A stretch of DNA of 22,322 bases from Triparma columacea (lineage: Eukaryota > Sar > Bolidophyceae > Parmales > Triparmaceae), in NCBI GenBank assembly GCA_030267965.1, contig BRYA01000514.1, forward strand, positions 1-22,322, given 5' to 3'. Shown piece after piece: positions 8,601-22,246 of the stretch (position 1 is its first letter; the number at the start of each line of letters is the position of its first letter). The translations under genes were made by a program, and so were the position numbers. The notes under the pieces are model-generated. The model was not told the DNA's origin. It saw only the letters and a list, made by a program, of their open reading frames with translations, and searched no databases.

Positions 8601-11600
8601 GTCGATGCACTCCAGCTCGGTTGGATCTTTGACACCACCGAGCTTTCTAACCAATTCCTTCTTCATCAAATTAAGCGCATTGCTTCGCTCCGCCTCGGAC
8701 TCCCCGTAGAATTCCGGCCGGAGGTACTCGAAGTCGATGAGGTACTCAGGTAGTGCCAGAGCAGGATTGAAAACGTGCCACCGCTTAGGTTGGTGGTTCG
8801 ATGACGGTGGCTGCCCGTTCGTTTCGGATGATGCATCGGCTGCTGCAGAGATTGGGTTGGAGGAATTCGGGGAGGCAACGCTGTGGAAGGCAGAATTGAA
8901 GTTATTGAAATCGCTAGCGTTGATTCTATCCGTCGGAGAAAGGGGAGGAGGGATTTCCTGCCTCTCTCCAACGAAAGTCTTGACGAGGAGTATTTGGCCG
9001 GTTATTGGGGGGCGCACGGGAGCGTCGAGTGCATCCGTGGAGCGAAGGTGTTTGTCTTCCTCCTTCTGCAAATTGCAAAGTGACTGGAGGCGCAAGTCAT
9101 CTGCTCCGTCAATGGTAGAGTGGAGAGTGATTGATTCGTCGCATCCAAAGCTCTTGTACTGCAAGGGGGGGGAGGGGGGGGTATCTTTAGCGTACTCAAT
9201 CGTTGCATTGATAACGCTCGACCATTCTCACCTCCTCCGGCACTCTAAACCCATCCTCTGCAACCCGGATTATCTCGTCGTTCTGCCCAGTCTGTTCCGT
9301 CAGAGAGGGGGGGGTGCCATAAAAAAGGTACTCCAACATGCGCTTGGGAACCTTGCCCGAGGCGGCGGAAGTGTTGTCCTTATCTTTATCCTTGGTCTTG
9401 TCGTCCTTGCCATTGTTATCCTTGTTCAGTATTTCCCTGACAGTAGTCTCGAAGCGATGGCGAAGGAATCGGTTGTGAATACGGGTGATTCGATTGACCC
9501 TCACACTGCCAATCTTGAGCACCCTAAAGTAGTCCTTCTTCATGGAGAGGCGCGAATGGACGAGGTCAATGCAACTGTTGTACCAGACTTCAGTAGAGCT
9601 TCCCTCTTCAACCCTGATGTTGCCACCAGTGTGGAATTCGAGCATGAGTCGCTTAATGGTCGAGGAGGATGTATGAGACATTTCGAGCTTTGCATCATCT
9701 AGGGTTTTCTCCAGTTTCTTGATGTGGGAATTGAGCACGACAATTGCGCTCGACAGGGCATTGATTTTCTTTATCAACGCGGACTCCTGGGAGGGCGTAA
9801 ATGGAAGGATGGGACTGCGAGGGGGATTTGGCGGCGAGGGGGGCGGCGAGCGAAGCGAGTCGCGAGATGGATTGTTAATATGGTTTCGCGAATGTGAAGT
9901 GGGATGGAATGGTTTCGCGAATGTGAAGTGGGATGGAAATGGTTTCGGGAATGTGAAGTGGGATGGAATGGTTTCGGGAATGTGAAGTGGGATGGAATGG
10001 TTTCGCGAATGTGAAGTGGGATGGAAATGGTTTCGGGAATGTGAAGTGGGATGGAATGGTTTCGGGAATGTGAAGTGGGATGGAATGGTTTCGGGAATGT
10101 GAAGTGGGATGGAATGGTTTCGCGAATGTGAAGTGGGATGGAATGGTTTCGCGAATGTTCGTTCCTTCCCTCACCTGTTTTTTGCTTTGGACGTATGGGG
10201 AGGATACTCGTCAAAATTTTGAGGGGATGAGAGCCCGTTGGACGGTACAGGAGAGGAAGTGGGGGAGAGCGACGACGTTGAGTTGGTGGGCGACGCAGTT
10301 GAGTCGACTGACTCTTCCGAGTCTGGCAAATAGGGGATTGGAGGTTGTTGACGGGTTGAGTTAGTTGCTTGCCAACCTCGTTTCAATTTAGATGCTGCTG
10401 TTAGGGCTGCGACCCACCCATCTCCTCACCTGAATCCTCGCCCTCCATGACACTATACCGATTCATTTCAAGGAAGCCCTCAACGTCCTTCTTCTTCTTA
10501 AGGAGCATGTTAAGCGTCACATTGAGGGAAGATAGCTTCTGTTTGAATATTTCCTCCGCCTCGCGCATAACATTGGTTGCGTTGCGCTTCAAGGTCTTCA
10601 TCCTCATGTTGTAATACATTTTCTTCTTCATGTAAATGGACTGGGCAAGAGACTTTGCCTCGTCAGTGATGAGCTCCGCGTCCAGGCGAGTGATCTGGGA
10701 AAGATGGTAGAGGGCATAAGTCTGGTAATTACACAGGGAGCAGACTGGGTTGGATCCAAAGTGGGGATCGTTGAGGAAGAGATTCTGAAGGGTCGTGATA
10801 TTGGATAGCGGGAGCAGCTCCTTGAAACACCCAATGCGGTTGTCAGCGAGGTTGAGATCAGTAAGCTCAGGAAGCTTCGAAATGTGGTCACCTAGGCGTG
10901 GGCGGGGGGGGGAGCGAGGGGGGAGCAGTGAGCGAAGAAGGTTGGAGGTTGGAGGTTGCTGTGCAGTGCAATACAACATTCGAGTAAGTTTACATTCGAG
11001 CAAGTTTCCATTCTCACCTATGCGCTCAATCTTGTTACGACAGAGCCAGAGAGACTTGAGGTTGACAAGGTTGGAAAGGCCACGCAAGGAGTCAAGCCGG
11101 TTATCGTTCAACCAGAGTTGCCTGAGAGAGTCGACATTCTCGAAAGCTGCCTCAAGGTCCGAGTTAGTTAGCTTGTTCCCGGATAAGTGGAGATTTTTTA
11201 GCGATGTGTTGTAACAAAATAAGAGACTCGGGAGAGAACACAACCCGCAGTCTGTCATCCAAAGGGATTCCAGTTGGCTAAGGGAGCTAAATGTGGAAGG
11301 GGAGAGCGTTGTGAGGGTGGGTTGCCTCATAATGGTGAGTGAGACGAGATTCGGAAAGTGGGAGAGAAAGTCGAGGTCCTGCGAGAATGGTGAGGGGGCG
11401 GCGAGCGAAGCGAGCCACGGGAAGGATGGGCGAAGTTGTGTGAGAGAGGCGGCGAGCGATGAGAGAGGCGGCGAGCGATGAGAGAGGCTGCGTCTTGCTG
11501 TTTTCTCATCCTCACCTCTATTCTACAAGCAAAAGTATCTAGGGACATTGTGCGATGGCTAAGAGGGTGGGAGAGGGAGGGTGGGGGGGTCAACACTGAG

Positions 11601-14867: not shown

Positions 14868-17439
14868 TCATCGATCCTCCTCCTCTTCTCCACCCCCATC
14901 CCCACCTGCTGTCTGCGTCGCAAATATGTTCCCCAAGGAGCTCCGTCGCCTGTGTTCTATTATCATTTTCACGTTATACGTCCGGAGCTCCACGAGGATC
15001 TCTGGGTCGGTCACGAAATCATTAGGTATGATGGATCGCTTCTGATCGTCGAACCACTCTGGAGGTTCTTCCAACCACAATGGCAGCCTCTCGTTGATCC
15101 ACGCCTTAACCTCTGCGCCAATCTTGTACTCCCACTTGTGTCTATTGTCCCCGAAAATCGTAAATCTCTGTTCGTCTTCCTCGTTCTTGGTGAATGCCTC
15201 TTGACTGCTTTCATTGCTTGTTTTCGTGCTGATGAAGGTATGCAGGTACTCTCTCTTCACCGACACTAGTAGAGTTGTGTAAGACACAACCATCCCAGCA
15301 CATGCAGCCACCATGATTGTGACCACGGTGCTCTCCTCCAATCCACTCTCTTCTCCTCCGACAATCTGATTATCCTCGCCCAACTCAACGTCCTCGACGA
15401 ATGTTGAGTTGGGCGAGGATATGACATCGTCGACTACCTTCTCATATTGCAGCGCTGCAACAAGACCCATAACTACAGTCAAACCTAAACTGAAAGTGAA
15501 ATACGCACCGCCAACCTCGTTAGGATGTCGAAATTGGACAAGAGCGGTCCAGTCGACAATAACCTTGCCTATCCAGCGAATCATGAACAAACCGAAAACT
15601 CCCATGCCACCGTATACAGGCACCCAATACCAAAGATCTCGCCTAAGCCCTTTGATCGCCAAGTAAATGAGAAGCTCTCCTCCCAGCAGCGTTGCCACTT
15701 CTGACATCCCGCCCTTGATGTAGAAAAGAACACACGCAAAGCTGCGCGTAAGCAGGTTGAAAGCCGAAAGGAAGTACAGCGAAGCGAACACCTTCACCTT
15801 ACCAATAAAATCGCTCGGAATATACCCGTAAAATGATCGATTCTTCTTCCGATTCTCCTTGCCCAAATCCCAATCCCATGACGTAATTGCCGACGTGAAG
15901 GCGGCCGTCAAGATGCAGAACGCAAATGAGAAAAGCGCGCTCCTGGTAGGCTTCGACTCTGACACCAATAGCGCAGACAGTTGGATCAGCGTCCCAGGAA
16001 TTGCCTCTGCCACCAATTCAGCACTCTTATTAGCCGTCAACTCAGTCTGTGCATCCACCACCTGTCCCTCCTCGTGTGCTGACCCACTCGCAACGCGCCA
16101 CGCGTCAACCCCTGGCTTCACAAGAGACCAGACAAAAAACTGCTCCTTTAACTGTCTCTGCCACGGCTTCGCTCTATTCTGAGCGAATGTACCAATAGCT
16201 TGGAAAATGAGGTTGGTCAAGAGACTCCCAAGGGACGCCCATGCATACCCCCACAAGCTCCTTGTCTGAAAGTACTCCACGATCATCACAATGTCCGTAA
16301 CCATATCTCCTATACTTAACAACGCCGCGAAGAAAAGCTTAGCCTTGGCTAGCTTCTGCTTATCCCCCAGCTTATCTTTCAAGAAAGTGACGTGCATTTT
16401 ATCGAAGGTCTTAACGCATTCGCTCAGCTCCCTCATGCAAGGATAACACTCGAGGCACTTCTCAGCAGCGTCCAACTCCGATAATTCCTGTCTCAGGAAG
16501 TATAGCATCCCCTCAGCAAGTATCTTCACGTCGCCCATCGTCAGATCGCTCAAGTCAGTGTCACAAACTGGGTTCTTAGCAGGGATGCTAGTGGTGTTCA
16601 TGAGCTCAAACAAGTATGCAGATACGACGTCGCCGGTATTTTTCAGTTTAACCTTGAATATACCGGAGGGTCGTGAGACCTTCATCACGGGTTTCGGCTT
16701 GAATTTGTCTTTCAAGAGACACAAGTTAATCCCATTAAAGTGGGGCGCGATCCCGTTCAGCTCCTGCATGCACGGATAACACTCGAGGAATTTCTCAATT
16801 GCAATTGCCGTATTAACTTCCTGTCTGAGGAAATAGAGCATCCCTCCAACAAGGGTCTTCACATCGGCCGTTGTCAAATCACTCAAGGCCGCACTGCAAA
16901 CAGGCCTGTGCGGCGAGCGAAGCGAGCCGTGGAGAGGGGCGGCGAGCGAAGCGAGCCGTGGAGAGGGCTGTGTTAGAGGATCACAATCATGCGACGATCC
17001 CAACCATGCGACGATCCCAACCATGCGACGATCCCAACCATGCGACGATCCCCATCAATCTACTCCCCTCCTCTCACCTGGCTGACCTGCCATGATTCTC
17101 ACGAGGGACAGACGTCTCTTTGGTTAGATGTAGGATATATTTGTAGATTACTTCGGGAACATCCAGTTTGACACCATCATCTGTTAAATAACTGGGAGCC
17201 TTCATTGGTACATTGACACCGTCGCCGATCGCAGCACGCTCGACGATCATAGCTTCGTCGCCCTCTTTATCGGCGCCCTTGTTATCGACGCCCTTTCCCT
17301 TAGAGACAAAGGCCGGCTTGGGTGAAAATGTGGTTGAGGGGGTGTTTTCACCCTTCTCTTCATTAGCGGCGATCTTTTGATTCGTGTCAGGCAGTTTATG
17401 TACGCCATCGGAAGGGTCAGATTGGGGAACGACCTTCAT
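14868..17439 (-). CDS. Multi-pass membrane protein with duplicated N-terminal domain
   Basis: Two exons, 17439-17078 and 16905-14868, encode 799 aa. The first ATG in frame is at 17439. Residues 1-120 are polar and low in complexity. Two homologous 70-residue units at 124-193 and 235-304 align without gaps and are about half identical by eye. They share LSDLT, DVK, GMLYFLRQE and LECYPCM. The membrane part starts near 309 (FFAALLSIGDMVTDIVMIVEYF), which resembles the first segments of XK-like scramblase-family proteins. Roughly eight further hydrophobic segments follow. EAIPGTLIQL, SFYGYIP, FRHPNEVGGAY and LPLWLEEPPEWF recall a family of uncharacterised predicted proteins in heterokont algae, from memory only. 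The C-terminus is cytosolic-looking, with a Gly/Glu-rich end. Function is unknown; lipid or ion transport is a guess. Confidence 0.8.
15371..15421. repeat. Perfect 19-bp inverted repeat inside the membrane-protein exon
   Basis: The left arm TATCCTCGCCCAACTCAAC (15371-15389) is the exact reverse complement of 15403-15421, with a 13-nt loop between. On the coding strand the arms encode S-S-P-N-S-T and V-E-L-G-E-D around F-V-E-D, in a loop between predicted membrane segments. Confidence 0.97.
16906..17077 (-). mobile_element. Introner-like intron of the membrane-protein gene
   Basis: This 172-nt intron (GTGAGAGGAGG to GCACAG) has two hairpin elements at about 16911-16931 and 16939-16959. Each is followed by the same GTGGAGAGGGG-type spacer. 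A 17-bp minisatellite follows at 16988-17051. The exon end (CCAG) and the intron end (ACAG) share CAG. Confidence 0.7.
16988..17051. repeat. 17-bp tandem repeat in membrane-protein intron
   Basis: Four copies of CATGCGACGATCCCAAC start at 16988, 17005, 17022 and 17039; the last is partial. The array lies directly beside two hairpin elements. Confidence 0.95.
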
Positions 17440-17586: not shown

Positions 17587-17590
17587 TTAT
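17534..17590. repeat. Dispersed repeat copy B
   Basis: This is a near copy of 14733-14790 (GTGGGATTGGCAAAAAAGAG, ACGAGTTTCGTTGA, GGAACGGAT). It abuts the PNPase stop codon at 17587-17589. A smaller echo of its end, GGAACGGATCCATGTTATT, lies just before it near 17511-17529. Confidence 0.85.
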
Positions 17591-20500
17591 TTTTTTCCTT
17601 CTTTGCCCCCCTTCTTTTTCTTCCTCGTTTGAGTTGCCCGACTTGCCCTCCTGCGCCCTTTACTATTCCTTCCCTTGCCAGGCTTTTTTTCAGCCTGCCC
17701 CTTCTTCTTCTCGTCTTTATCTTTTTCTTTATATCCATGCTTGGAAATGTCGTAGCCGTCCGCAGCCGATACGTCGCCTTTTTTTAGGAGCGACTGGTCA
17801 ATGTTCGCAATGGCCCATTCTCTGGCACGAACCATTTCGTAATCGACGTATTTGACAGAGGTGGAAACCTTGTCGAGGTCGTCGTCAAGGTCGTCGTCTA
17901 GGTCATCGTCGAGGTCGTCTTCATTATCGTCGAGGTCGTTTTCATTATCGCCGTCATCCTCGTCGTTATCCTCGTTGTCCTCCTCGTCGTCATCCTCGTC
18001 GTCATCCTCGACGTCAATTTCGTGTTGTTCCTCGTTTATGTCAGATTTCTCAACCTCTCCCCCCCTTCCTTGAGCCTCGACGCCCATCAAATTGCGCTTC
18101 ACCAGCTGCTTCCTACTCATCTTGATATGTCCCCTCACCTTGTCAATGTCCGTACACAGGAGGTCTATCTTCATTCCTATAGCGAGCAAGCTCTCAACGA
18201 CGCCCTTGTTGCCCTCGGGGTGTTTGAGAAGGTCCGGGTCATCAGTGAGCTCACTAACGTGCAAAATAGCTTCCTTGTTCCTAAGGATCTCAACCGTTGC
18301 GCCAAAGTCCTTCACATCGAGAACCACGCCCTCGTATATACCTCCTAGCGAGAGCGAGAGGGACGAGCGAAGCGAGTCACGGAGAGGACTGCGTTAGTGG
18401 TCGTCGCGGTGCAGCTCTGATTTCACACCCATTCTCACCTATCTCGACATCCGCGACGAGCTCGTTCACGGCGTTCCTAGCCTCCTTCACTCCCCTACCA
18501 CTCTCGTAACTATCCTCGCCGCCTTCGCCATAAATCAGGCATTGACCTTCCTGGCTGAGGTCGAGCACAACGCCATAGTGAGCCTCTATTTGGTTGAGGA
18601 CAACGCCGCCAGGTCCAACCAAGTCTTTCTTCCTCACAGGATCAAACCTAGGTGCGAGCGAAGCGAGTGTGAAGTATGAGACGAAGTCGAATTGCTGAGA
18701 GATAGAGCGAGTGCAAGGGAAGGGAGGTTGCCCCCGAAATTTACCTGACTATTTCTACCCTCGGGGCGCTTCTCTTCACCTCCCTCCTCGGTGCGTCAAG
18801 CTCATCTTTAGTGACGAGCGAAGCGAGAGCGAGAGGGACGAGCGAAGCGAGTCACGGAGAGGACTGCGTTAGTGGTCGTCGCGGTGCAGCTCTGATTTTC
18901 ACCCATTCTCACCTTTCATTGTGTCAAGGATTGTGCTTCTCCCCGTCTTGGCAAGGTCCATGGAGTCGAGTAGCACGTCCAGAGGAACACCCTCCTTCAA
19001 CTTGCAATCCAACTGGATAGCAGTGATCCTGTCTTTTGTCCCAGCGATCTTGGAGGTGACGACGAGCGAAGCGAGAGCGAGAGGGACGAGCGAAGCGAGA
19101 GCGACGAGCGAAGCGAGTCACGGAGAGGACTGCGTTAGTGGTCGTCGCAGTGCAGCTCTTATTTTCACCCATTCTCACCTTGAAGTCCATCTCGCCATAA
19201 TGGTCCTCCTGGAGGAGCGTTTTATAGTCATTTGTGTTAGTTTTTTTGGGGGGGGGGTTCGATGTAAGTCTCGCTACAGCTCCTGGTTCTATACCATCCA
19301 TTCCTTACCGTTCCTGTAATGTCGAGCAGCGGGAGATACTCGCCGTCTCTCTCGACGAGGCCCACGCTAATGCCAGCGACCTGCTCCTTCACCGGAACTC
19401 CGGCGTCCATAAGAGCGAGCATCGTCCCGCAGACCGTGGCCATGCTACTGCTGCCGTTGCTGCTCGTAACCTCTGACGTCATCCTGATAACGTAGGGGAA
19501 CTCAGAAGCGTCCGGGAGGATGGGCAAGATGGCCTTCTCCGCCAAGTTGCCGTGGCCTACACTCCTCCTGTTCGGCCCCGTCATACCACCCACCTCTCCA
19601 ACGCTGTAGGAAGGGAAGTCGTAATGGAGAAAGCTCCTCTGCGAGTGCGGCGAGCGAAGCGAGTCGCGAAGGGGGGTGCGTAAGTGGTTGAAGGGGGGTG
19701 CGTAAGTGGTTGAAGGGGGGTGCGTAAGTGGTTGAAGGAGGTTGCGTAAGTGGTTGACGATCTTGCGACAACCAAATGGTTGCAAGCATAGTGAGACGAG
19801 CGAGAAGAGTCTCAAGAGGGCTGTCATAATGCAATAATGCCCCGTTAATGTCCTGCTCTGTCTTAATTTTTAATCCATTCTCACCTGGTACTCTTCCTTG
19901 TCAAAAGCACCGCCCTGTCCGACGAGCATTTGCTCAGCCTGAGCGGGCGGCGAGCGAAGCGAGCCGCGGGAAGGATGGGCGAAATTGTGTGAGAGAGGCG
20001 GCGAGCGATGAGAGAGGGTTACTAGGAGGATGGCAAAAACTGTAAAATTTGGTCTTCCCAGTAGTCTTCAAGTAGTCTCACCTCCCACTTTTTGAGGTCC
20101 ATCATGGCCTCGGTTTCTTGAGGTCCCACGCTGCGAAGGCTCCCAACAGGGTAACCATTCGCTTCCATGTCGACGGTATATTTGCTGCTAATTCTACTGT
20201 GTCTGTAAGGGTCCCTGGGAGGAGCGAAGCGATGACCGGTGGGAGGAGCGAAGCGACGAGGGAGGAGCGAAGCGAAGGTGGGAGGAGCGAAGCGACGACC
20301 GAACGGGGTTGGATGAAACAGAGCGAGGAGCGCAGCGAAGGTGGGAGGAGCGAAGCGAAGTGGGAGGAGCGAAGCGACGACCGAACGGTGTTGGTTGGTT
20401 GGTTGAAACAGAGCGAGGAGCGAAGCTCAGGAGCTCTAAGGGTCGATGCCGTGCCTCCTCCCTCCTTATCGCCAGCATTTTTTGTCGTTGGCTTGTTCGT

Positions 20501-22246
20501 ATGCATAGAAAACGCCATCGCCCGTCCATTCTCACCTAATCCTAATCGAATCGTGGGGAGTCCCAAGGGTAACAGTCGAGAGGACCTGCGTTTCGCCCCT
20601 ACCAAAGACGGCGCTACCATGGACTGGGTTAGGGGGCGACGGTATGGGGTAAGGTATGGGCAGGAAGAGGGGTTAGGGGGTTGGAATGGTTAGGGGGTTG
20701 GAATGGTTAGGGGGTTGGAATTTGGGACTGAAGTCCAAGTCGTTTCAACCTAAGTCGGTGCTTTCACACCTCACTGAGAGCGGTTCACTTTCGTTTCACC
20801 ATCGCTGAACGCTCTTTTCACGTCGCTTCGCTCTTCATTCCCAACCCCGTAACACTCGCTTCGCTCGTCCCACTACACACTCACCTACGTCAGGGAGAGC
20901 GGGCGCCGCCGCCACAAGGGATCGGAGCTCCGCCGTTCCTCTCCCGTCCGCCCTCTGGCCATCAAAGGCTGCGTCCTTAAGGGAGAGCTAGGGGCGGCGA
21001 GCGAGTGGGGCGGCGAGCGAAGCGAGCCGCGGGAAGGATGGGCGAAATTGTGTGAGAGGGGCGGCGAGCGATGAGCGAGCGTGCAATGAGCGAGAGCGAA
21101 GAACTGAGTGCCATCCGAAACATGCAGAGGTACCGTACCTTCAGTGCCTTGTAGAGCGTCTCGTTGTCCTCGTCGGCGGCCTCCTCCTCGCTGAGACCGA
21201 GCTTTTCGACTACCAGGCTCCTATATTCAGCCTCGCGCTTCCCCCTGAAAGCCTTGCCCTCGCCCTTCTCGCCTCTATAAACGTGCCTTCCCAGCTCCGT
21301 AAGTTCCGGGGTTAGGGGAATGGGGGGGGTGGAGGGGGGGAGGGGGGGAGGCGAAGGGAGCTTGGAGAGAAGCTTTCTCTGCGTGTCGATGATGGGCTCT
21401 AACGCTTCCACTGCGGCTTTGAGCATCTCCTTCACCTTGTCCTCAGAGATAGGCTTGCGACGAGCGAAGCGAGCGACGAGCGAAGCGAGTCGCGGAAGGG
21501 GTATGGGGTAAGGTATGGGCGGTGAGCGAAGCGAACCGCTGAAGGGGTTTGGGATGGGGGCAATCTTGGGCGCCAAACGTCAACTTAGAACCCCCCCCCT
21601 CGCGGTGAGCGAAGCGAACCGCTGAAGGGGTTTGGGATGGGGGCAATATTGGCGCCACACACAAACTTCAACTTAGAACCCCCCCCCCCTCCCCTCCCCA
21701 CTTCGCCATTTCGTCGTTCTCACCTTGGACGCTCCAAACTCAATCATTGTGACCTTTCCGTTCCCACCTCCCACAGTCATGAAAGTCTCCGAGTCGCCCT
21801 TACCGGGGCTCAGCGATCCGTCAGCATTCAGCCCAATCTCAACGCACCCAACCCCCCCATCAATCAAACCCTGAGACCATAGGCCCGCGCTAACACCGTT
21901 CACCGCAAGGGTTATTCCGTCAGAACCAGTATCGACGGCCTGGACCATGCAGGTTACTTCAACCCCATTACCCAGAGTAGAGGTGGCAGGACGGATGCAC
22001 CTATCCACAACCCTGGCTGCGAGAATCTCATTGTCGTCAGAGCGACCGAAGTCGCGCCTCTGGACGCTACCAGGTATCCTGCCATTCGCAGCGTGGCGAT
22101 TCACAAAGTTTATGGTTAGGGGAGATGTTGAGGTAGAGTCACGGCAGATGTGGTTGTTCACCAAGGTGTTGGTGGAGGCGGAGGTGGAGGTTATGGTTGC
22201 GAGGGAGAGGGGGGACAGGTAGCCAGTAGACAGGTTGAAAGTGTGG
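17587..22246 (-). CDS. PNP: Polynucleotide phosphorylase (5' partial), 12 exons
   Basis: Exons A-L read 22246-21724, 21453-21139, 20975-20885, 20623-20536, 20214-20082, 19938-19885, 19638-19309, 19208-19179, 19048-18913, 18805-18745, 18647-18439 and 18344-17587, giving 908 residues in consistent phase. The enzyme degrades RNA by phosphorolysis, usually in plastids or mitochondria. Exon A is the first RNase PH domain ([14 protein letters not shown]), B the helical linker, C-I the second RNase PH domain ([40 protein letters not shown]). The catalytic motif [10 protein letters not shown] matches the D486/D492/K494 set of E. coli PNPase. Exon K is a KH domain ([14 protein letters not shown]) and L an S1 domain ([16 protein letters not shown]). 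Unusual extras are about 50 residues inserted before HYDFP and a long Asp/Glu then Lys/Arg tail. The start and targeting peptide are off the contig. Confidence 0.93.
18345..18438 (-). mobile_element. Introner copy 1 (PNPase intron K-L, one hairpin)
   Basis: This 94-nt intron begins GTGAGAATGGGTG on the coding strand and is nearly identical to introns I-J and H-I through the body (GAGCTGCACCGCGACGACCA, then CTAACGCAGTCCTCTCCGTG). It has one hairpin core (GAC/GTC stem) and ends CGCTAG. The exon end ATAG and intron end CTAG share TAG. Confidence 0.88.
18648..18744 (-). mobile_element. PNPase intron J-K with one hairpin core
   Basis: This 97-nt intron (donor GTAAATTTCG, end CACCTAG) carries one GAGCGAAGCGA core with a weak stem near the acceptor. 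Its body differs from introns H-I, I-J and K-L, so it is either an older or a separate insertion. Confidence 0.6.
18806..18912 (-). mobile_element. Introner copy 2 (PNPase intron I-J, two hairpins)
   Basis: This 107-nt intron matches introns K-L and H-I from the donor (GTGAGAATGGGTGAAAATCA) through about 90 nt. It has two hairpin cores before the acceptor. Exon end GAAAG and intron end TAAAG share AAAG, like a short target duplication. Confidence 0.88.
19049..19178 (-). mobile_element. Introner copy 3 (PNPase intron H-I, three hairpins)
   Basis: This 130-nt intron is a third near-identical copy with three hairpin cores. Exon end TCAAG and intron end CCAAG share CAAG. Within the shared body it differs from copy 2 at only a few bases (for example GCACTGCG for GCACCGCG). 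Confidence 0.88.
19639..19884 (-). mobile_element. PNPase intron F-G with hairpin and minisatellite
   Basis: This 246-nt intron begins GTGAGAATGGATT. It carries a hairpin element near the acceptor (about 19648-19668, GCGGC/GTCGC stem) followed on the plus strand by a 22-bp minisatellite (19669-19756). Confidence 0.75.
19669..19756. repeat. 22-bp tandem repeat in PNPase intron F-G
   Basis: Four copies of AAGGGGGGTGCGTAAGTGGT plus TG start at 19669, 19691, 19713 and 19735. The last has AAGGAGGTTGCG. The array begins directly at the right foot of the hairpin element. Confidence 0.95.
19939..20081 (-). mobile_element. Introner-like PNPase intron E-F
   Basis: This 143-nt intron has one hairpin element (about 19947-19967) and the tail GGGAAGGATGGGCGAAATTG, TGTGAGAGAGGCGGCGAGCG, ATGAGAGAGG on the plus strand. 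It is shared with LRRC9 intron 2. Confidence 0.75.
20215..20535 (-). mobile_element. PNPase intron D-E with amplified hairpin cores
   Basis: This 321-nt intron starts GTGAGAATGGACG. Between about 20220 and 20427 it has six intact GAGCGAAGCGA cores and two variants, each preceded by GGGAG or GAG. A longer block containing CGACGACCGAACGG and TGAAACAGAGCGAGGAGCG is present twice. The flanks of these cores do not pair well, so the stem has been lost here while the core was amplified. Confidence 0.75.
20624..20884 (-). mobile_element. PNPase intron C-D with inverted hairpin and 17-bp repeats
   Basis: This 261-nt intron contains three tandem copies of GGTTAGGGGGTTGGAAT (20671-20721). It also has CTTCGCTCTTC and CTCGCTTCGCTCGTCC (about 20823-20871), which is the hairpin core in the opposite orientation to every other copy in the window. 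A stretch around 20641-20660 (TATGGGGTAAGGTATGGGC) recurs in intron A-B. Confidence 0.75.
20976..21138 (-). mobile_element. Introner-like PNPase intron B-C
   Basis: This 163-nt intron has the unusual donor GTACGG. It carries a full hairpin at about 21010-21030, followed by GGGAAGGATGGGCGAAATTG and a tail similar to that in the RhoGAP intron, where it lies antisense to transcription. Confidence 0.75.
21454..21723 (-). mobile_element. PNPase intron A-B with hairpins and 83-bp duplication
   Basis: This 270-nt intron contains a hairpin with perfect GCGAC/GTCGC stem at 21473-21493 and two hairpins with GCGGT/ACCGC stems at 21519-21539 and 21602-21622. The last two lie in a direct duplication. Exon end CCAAG and intron end GCAAG share CAAG. 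Confidence 0.8.
21519..21689. repeat. 83-bp direct duplication in PNPase intron A-B
   Basis: Copies start at 21519 and 21602. Each runs from the hairpin through GAAGGGGTTTGGGATGGGGG, CAAT, a GGCGCCA palindrome, CAACTTAGAA and a C run. The second copy carries a small insertion (CACACACAAACTT) near its end. Confidence 0.9.

Follow-up and report, generated by a model that had tools for sequence, protein, structure and literature searches.

Three near-identical introns in the PNPase gene of Triparma columacea are probably introner copies belonging to one of several small families

INTRODUCTION

Introner elements are reportedly known from Micromonas through the work of Worden in 2009. The Parmales, to which Triparma columacea belongs, are the sister group of diatoms.

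Introners have been described from many aquatic lineages (PMC9860276). We found no paper linking them with Parmales, Triparma or Bolidophyceae; the names Triparma, Parmales and Bolido are absent from the main text of PMC9860276, the supplement of which may list such a genome. Here, we analysed a 22,322-nt contig of T. columacea (BRYA01000514.1, the whole of which is called the window) and compared it with the genome. Three introns of its PNPase gene are probably copies of an introner (family A), and the genome would hold several small families of this kind, of which family A is one.

The introner elements of Micromonas, as described in PMC3879977, share with those found here that conserved repeat introns occupy many gene positions in sense only, with several families per genome. 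Compared by description, however, the families found here are small (nine full copies of family A and ten of family D were found), some occur within a single gene only, and mosaic introns are present as well. The introners of Chrysochromulina carry their donor and gain their acceptor through a short duplication of the target site, according to PMC9860276, and family A seems alike; the repeated end, though, is 4 bp in Chrysochromulina and a variable 2–7 nt here, and family D is without such a repeat. In this respect family D resembles fungal introner-like elements, which are described as intron units without TIR or TSD (PMC4457414; PMC9860276), but the host lineage is another one, and here a family with target-like repeats occurs alongside. 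Near-identical introns within one gene are also described for Oikopleura (PMC3879977), where four intron pairs are given, whereas here up to five copies per gene occur together with dispersed copies.

RESULTS

Three introns of the PNPase gene

The PNPase gene lies on the minus strand of the window (17587..22164) and has 11 introns, which were placed by reading frame; its spliced 877-aa frame, the 5′ end of which is not fixed, matches Pfam RNase_PH, RNase_PH_C and S1, and no Pfam match to a KH domain was obtained. The three family A introns, also on the minus strand, measure 130 nt (19049..19178, phase 0, DFK|IAG), 107 nt (18806..18912, phase 1, TMK|DEL) and 94 nt (18345..18438, phase 1, VEI|GGI), with three, two and one repeat cores. 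The initial annotation had described them as near-identical from the donor inward, and its coordinates proved exact to the base: pairwise identity is 97.9, 95.7 and 93.6% over 94 nt, from the same donor onward. With the predicted splicing, the reading frame is continuous across all three. A simple HMM-based gene finder called these three introns exactly, and 7 of the 11 PNPase introns overall; its donor model is limited to exon positions −2 and −1 and intron positions +3 to +5 and is therefore blind to an extended donor.

The exons that they separate are dissimilar, as had been claimed. The exon between the 130- and 107-nt introns (18913..19048, minus strand) encodes the C-terminal part of RNase PH, the exon upstream of the 94-nt intron (18439..18647, minus strand) is KH-like by its position in PNPases, and the last exon (17587..18344, minus strand) encodes the S1 domain and an acidic tail; the window blasted against itself gave no exon match around the three introns. 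A metagenomic relative, P0037 (933 aa, from a 2,821-base contig), is 78% identical to the PNPase and aligns without gaps across all three junctions. The T. laevis PNPase (48–50% identical) is ungapped over two of them, with a gap three residues beyond the junction of the 107-nt intron.

Repeated kinds make up 6 of the 11 PNPase introns: three of family A, one of family B and two of family C. The family B intron (19209..19308, minus strand, 100 nt) has matches on contigs C283 (one at 96%, plus a 61-nt fragment at 93%) and C13 (87%). On C283 (locus L095, 1500–2000), two family B blocks lie ~200 nt apart around a short coding-looking stretch, which splits off the first part of the second block from its remainder. 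Family C comprises two PNPase introns on the minus strand (19939..20081, with the 3′ block at 19940–20017, and 20976..21138, with the block at 21003–21079) and one intron of another window gene (11379..11515, minus strand, by HMM call only, with the block at 11391–11468); only the 3′ block is common to the three. The window also holds a minisatellite with a ~29-bp unit (9880–10158) and a member of a multicopy gene family (14868–17024; PF09815 in some relatives), which has several relatives at 79–88% and whose closest named relatives are in T. columacea itself (up to 85%).

Family A across the genome

The genome (37.85 Mb, 789 contigs) was searched with a 61-nt core of family A that lacks the repeat tail, so that matches are not a microsatellite or low-complexity artefact. 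Of the twelve matches obtained, nine are separate copies and the other three are 21-nt repeats inside one of these copies. The copies lie on six contigs (C454 three times, C760 twice, and C469, C223, C372 and C613 once each) with E-values of 1.4e-8 to 8.9e-25, which rule out chance similarity. All nine, in six genes, are at introns in sense. Together with the presence and absence of family D introns at exact splice boundaries in paralogs (see below), this search supports the earlier proposal that the three introns are introner elements.

The host genes differ. Pfam searches with parts of the six predicted host proteins gave five over the cut-off, each with different domains: RNase_PH/S1 (the PNPase, C454), LSDAT_euk (LSDAT/TRPM, C372), ANF_receptor (C223), ABC1 (kinase, C613) and DUF4455 (C469); the part of the C760 protein gave no domain over the cut-off. 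The HMM called seven of the nine copies exactly and only the donor of the C223 copy, and the second C760 copy was outside the HMM run. In these unrelated genes similarity begins at the donor, with no exon sequence carried along; on the 3′ side it passes into the repeat tail, whose length varies among copies. C563 holds a weaker relative. The core motif was also met in two viral contigs, where GTGAGAATGG is missing, and was judged a chance occurrence there.

Empty sites were sought with the joined exon flanks of 16 copies, a query that did not include the junctions of the 130-nt and family B PNPase introns. For family A, no continuous match was found elsewhere with eight of the nine junctions, that of the 130-nt intron being absent from the query.

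Repeat tail and putative branch site

The initial annotation had ascribed one, two and three hairpin cores to the three PNPase introns. Their number holds, as CTCGCTTCGCTCG occurs once, twice and three times in the 94-, 107- and 130-nt introns. The hairpins do not: no inverted repeat of at least 8 nt was found in the three introns, and folding was no better than that of shuffled sequences, 144, 79 and 16 of 200 of which folded at least as well. The cores are instead units of a tandem repeat that is free of AG and lies between the putative branch site and the acceptor.

CTCGCTTCGCTCG is found 765 times in the genome and its reversed word 354 times, but the latter is nearly the same word and is no valid control. 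In a set of 210 called introns, part of which came from loci chosen for this motif, 48 contain CGCTTCGC in sense and 5 in antisense; of 110 unselected introns, 17 and 4 do. In 20 of 20 copies that contain CTAAC, no AG lies between it and the acceptor, barring one 4 nt from the family A branch A. The distance from CTAAC to the acceptor reaches up to 133 nt, with six cores.

Intron ends

Identity of at least 4 nt between exon end and intron end occurred in 6 of 22 copies against 1.4 expected (P = 0.0012), a set that leaves out the copies on C260, C69, C66, C179 and C283, site 1 of C368, and the E5, family F and PRP16 copies. In family A, the ends are identical over 7, 4, 4, 4, 3 and 3 nt in six of the nine copies (P = 0.0011 by summed length; P = 0.083 by copies with at least 3 nt, six of nine against 4.1 expected). 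No target duplication was detected in seven copies of family D (P = 0.68), and no inverted repeats of at least 8 nt in three family A and three family D copies. Among ordinary introns, 110 unselected ones have a weak excess of end identity (position −3, z = 2.3; 10 with at least 4 nt, ~4.5 expected), and 48 selected ones have none at −10 to −3.

Family D and empty sites

Ten full-length copies of family D, the query intron counted among them, sit in different genes on nine contigs (C35, C199, C260, C435, C285, C286, C69, C589 and, twice, C368), and partial copies were also found. Similarity starts at the donor in most full copies and extends to the acceptor in most copies. The HMM called a sense intron at 8 of 11 family D loci, and one further locus coincides with the 3′ portion of a called intron; there was no call at C69 and C589. 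On C179, a mosaic intron has a 3′ family D block.

In one gene family, two family D copies have a paralog that reads straight through the site. Site 1 is filled in P1 (C368, 8.6 kb), P2 (C286) and P4 (C69, upstream exon match only) and empty in P3 (C368, 12.2 kb), where a 170-nt stretch (C368:12220–12389) is 99% identical to the flanks in C286. Site 2 is filled in P1 (C368, 8.2 kb) and empty in P2 and P3 (97% and 94%). The breaks fall exactly at the splice sites, and the repeated sequence is limited to a 2-nt AG. Over 746 exon columns, 22 differences separate P1 from P3, 24 separate P2 from P3 and 33 separate P1 from P2, i.e. the paralogs are 96–97% identical. Because P2 and P3 have in common an HMM-called 91-nt intron (GTAAGTTCAG), P3 is not a processed copy. 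The nearest relative of the site 2 intron is the C260 copy (96%); its identity with the site 1 intron of the same gene is only 79%, so the neighbouring copy was not its source.

At each site there is one change on one branch of the three paralogs, compatible with either gain or loss, and the filled P4 hints that P3 may have lost its site 1 intron. Judged from these alignments, the family D intron is gained or lost as an exact unit, whichever the direction.

Other repeated introns

All five copies found of family E (C368) are within one gene, and five of the seven copies of family F are in one gene (C750), the others being on C518 and C601. The C601 locus (L087) carries an exon end of the C750 gene together with part of its intron; the C518 locus (L085) is a copy of the C750 intron minus the first 4 nt and, by eye, antisense to the neighbouring gene. 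At locus L060 (C58), the gene of the splicing helicase PRP16/DHX38 itself has four introns with blocks in common, and the PRP16 helicase of this genome is 96% identical to that of Triparma retinervis over 652 residues, which, with the matches of the PNPase and the multicopy gene, places the genome within Parmales close to T. retinervis. No empty site was found for 16 junctions of families E and F and the PRP16 gene. Locus L059 (C368) contains a mosaic, E5 (HMM intron 670–881 of the reverse strand), in which an own 5′ part is fused to a family E block. Such mosaics (E5, and the 3′ family D block on C179) show that introns also overwrite one another.

Sampling points to a minority of repeated introns. 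When 16 introns with GTGAGAATGG were used as queries, 14 matched only themselves, one gave a partial match (~50 nt) and one belonged to family D, so that common descent of all GTGAGAATGG introns was not borne out. In a sample of 24 HMM-called introns, some perhaps false calls (40 of 41 candidates were scored), no introner was found; L041 had one 91% copy, L029 one partial match, and L032 another ten full-length copies, whose flanks are conserved (compared in four copies), so that it belongs to a gene family. Repeated introns are a minority of introns, yet real.

AGGTGAGAATGG occurs 776 times in the genome against 9 for the reversed control. Outside the window, linkage of 5′ and 3′ motifs was not significant (P = 0.13 and 0.19). 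Conservation of the donor extends genome-wide beyond the reach of U1: the U1-like gene of this genome (61.5 bits against a cut-off of 69.5) starts with ATACTTACCTG, which can presumably pair up to intron position +8. U1 pairing may thus not be the whole cause of the long GTGAGAATGG donor, since it would not reach +9 and +10.

DISCUSSION

The copies, their positions and frames and the family D empty sites are read directly from the genome. We infer in addition that the family A copies arose by insertion and not by the overwriting of older introns, and they would be spliced out of RNA. In the proposed explanation, the unit would consist of ~60 nt of unique sequence, which include a donor (GTGAGAATGGG) as well as a branch-like site (CACTAACGCA), and, in its 3′ part, of a pyrimidine-rich, AG-free tail built of a short tandem repeat. 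It would insert into an exon behind an AG and be removed whole, and the reading frame would therefore be kept. The acceptor of family A would perhaps derive from the target, because the last 3–7 nt including the acceptor AG repeat the upstream exon end in six of nine copies, and family D mostly supplies its own CAG. As the tail is without AG, added repeat units could lengthen the intron without offering a false acceptor, and an antisense tail would offer one. These roles of branch site and tail are putative, and copying may have gone via reverse-spliced RNA or via DNA.

If introners moved via RNA, a freed intron would reverse-splice into a transcript, either its own or a different one, and the cDNA would recombine with the gene, which predicts exact intron units, in sense only and in genes only, without inverted or target repeats and with one-gene clusters. 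Family D copies, most of which end at splice sites, the three D and three A copies without inverted repeats, the called sense introns (seven of nine A copies, or eight with the C223 donor, and 8 of 11 D loci) and the one-gene clusters (five of five E and five of seven F copies) are consistent with this route, which PMC3879977 proposes likewise for Micromonas and for the same-gene pairs of Oikopleura. The short target-like duplications of family A, however, argue against it, as do the trimmed C518 copy, by eye antisense to its neighbour, and the exon carried by C601; introners elsewhere look mostly DNA-based, as PMC9860276 describes them. We regard this route as a tentative candidate.

Movement via DNA is to our mind equally tentative. 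The introner would then be a non-autonomous transposon whose target duplication of 3–7 nt supplies the acceptor, as in Chrysochromulina, and the identical ends in six of nine family A copies point to it; but three family A and three family D copies lack inverted repeats, the length of the duplication varies, and family D has no target duplication at all.

Old introns may instead have been homogenised, one sequence overwriting them within and between genes by gene conversion or templated repair. E5, with its own 5′ part joined to a family block, the 3′ blocks that are all family C has in common, and the single gene that holds all five E copies would suit such overwriting, and C601 (a C750 exon piece with intron) and C518 (a trimmed intron copy) indicate that DNA stretches get copied. 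Against this stand the presence and absence of whole family D introns at one site in paralogs 96–97% identical in their exons, and the similarity of family A, which in unrelated genes begins at the donor and includes no exon sequence. Homogenisation is thus an unlikely source of the three PNPase introns. Duplication of exon–intron blocks or whole genes, for which L032, a sampled multi-copy intron, provides an example in its gene family, is highly improbable and, for family A, is refuted by the unrelated exons around the introns, as the initial annotation had argued.

Within the introner reading, it is conceivable, though we doubt it, that introns multiply mainly within their own gene, in bursts (E, F and the PRP16 gene) with occasional escape to other genes. 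Introns would then enter their own transcripts by reverse splicing and get back into the gene through recombination of the cDNA, and mosaic introns would record template switching.

The origin of new introns is a long-standing question, and it is disputed whether introners travel as DNA or as RNA. A compact genome that combines dispersed and one-gene families, mosaics and empty-site paralogs would make both routes testable in a single organism.
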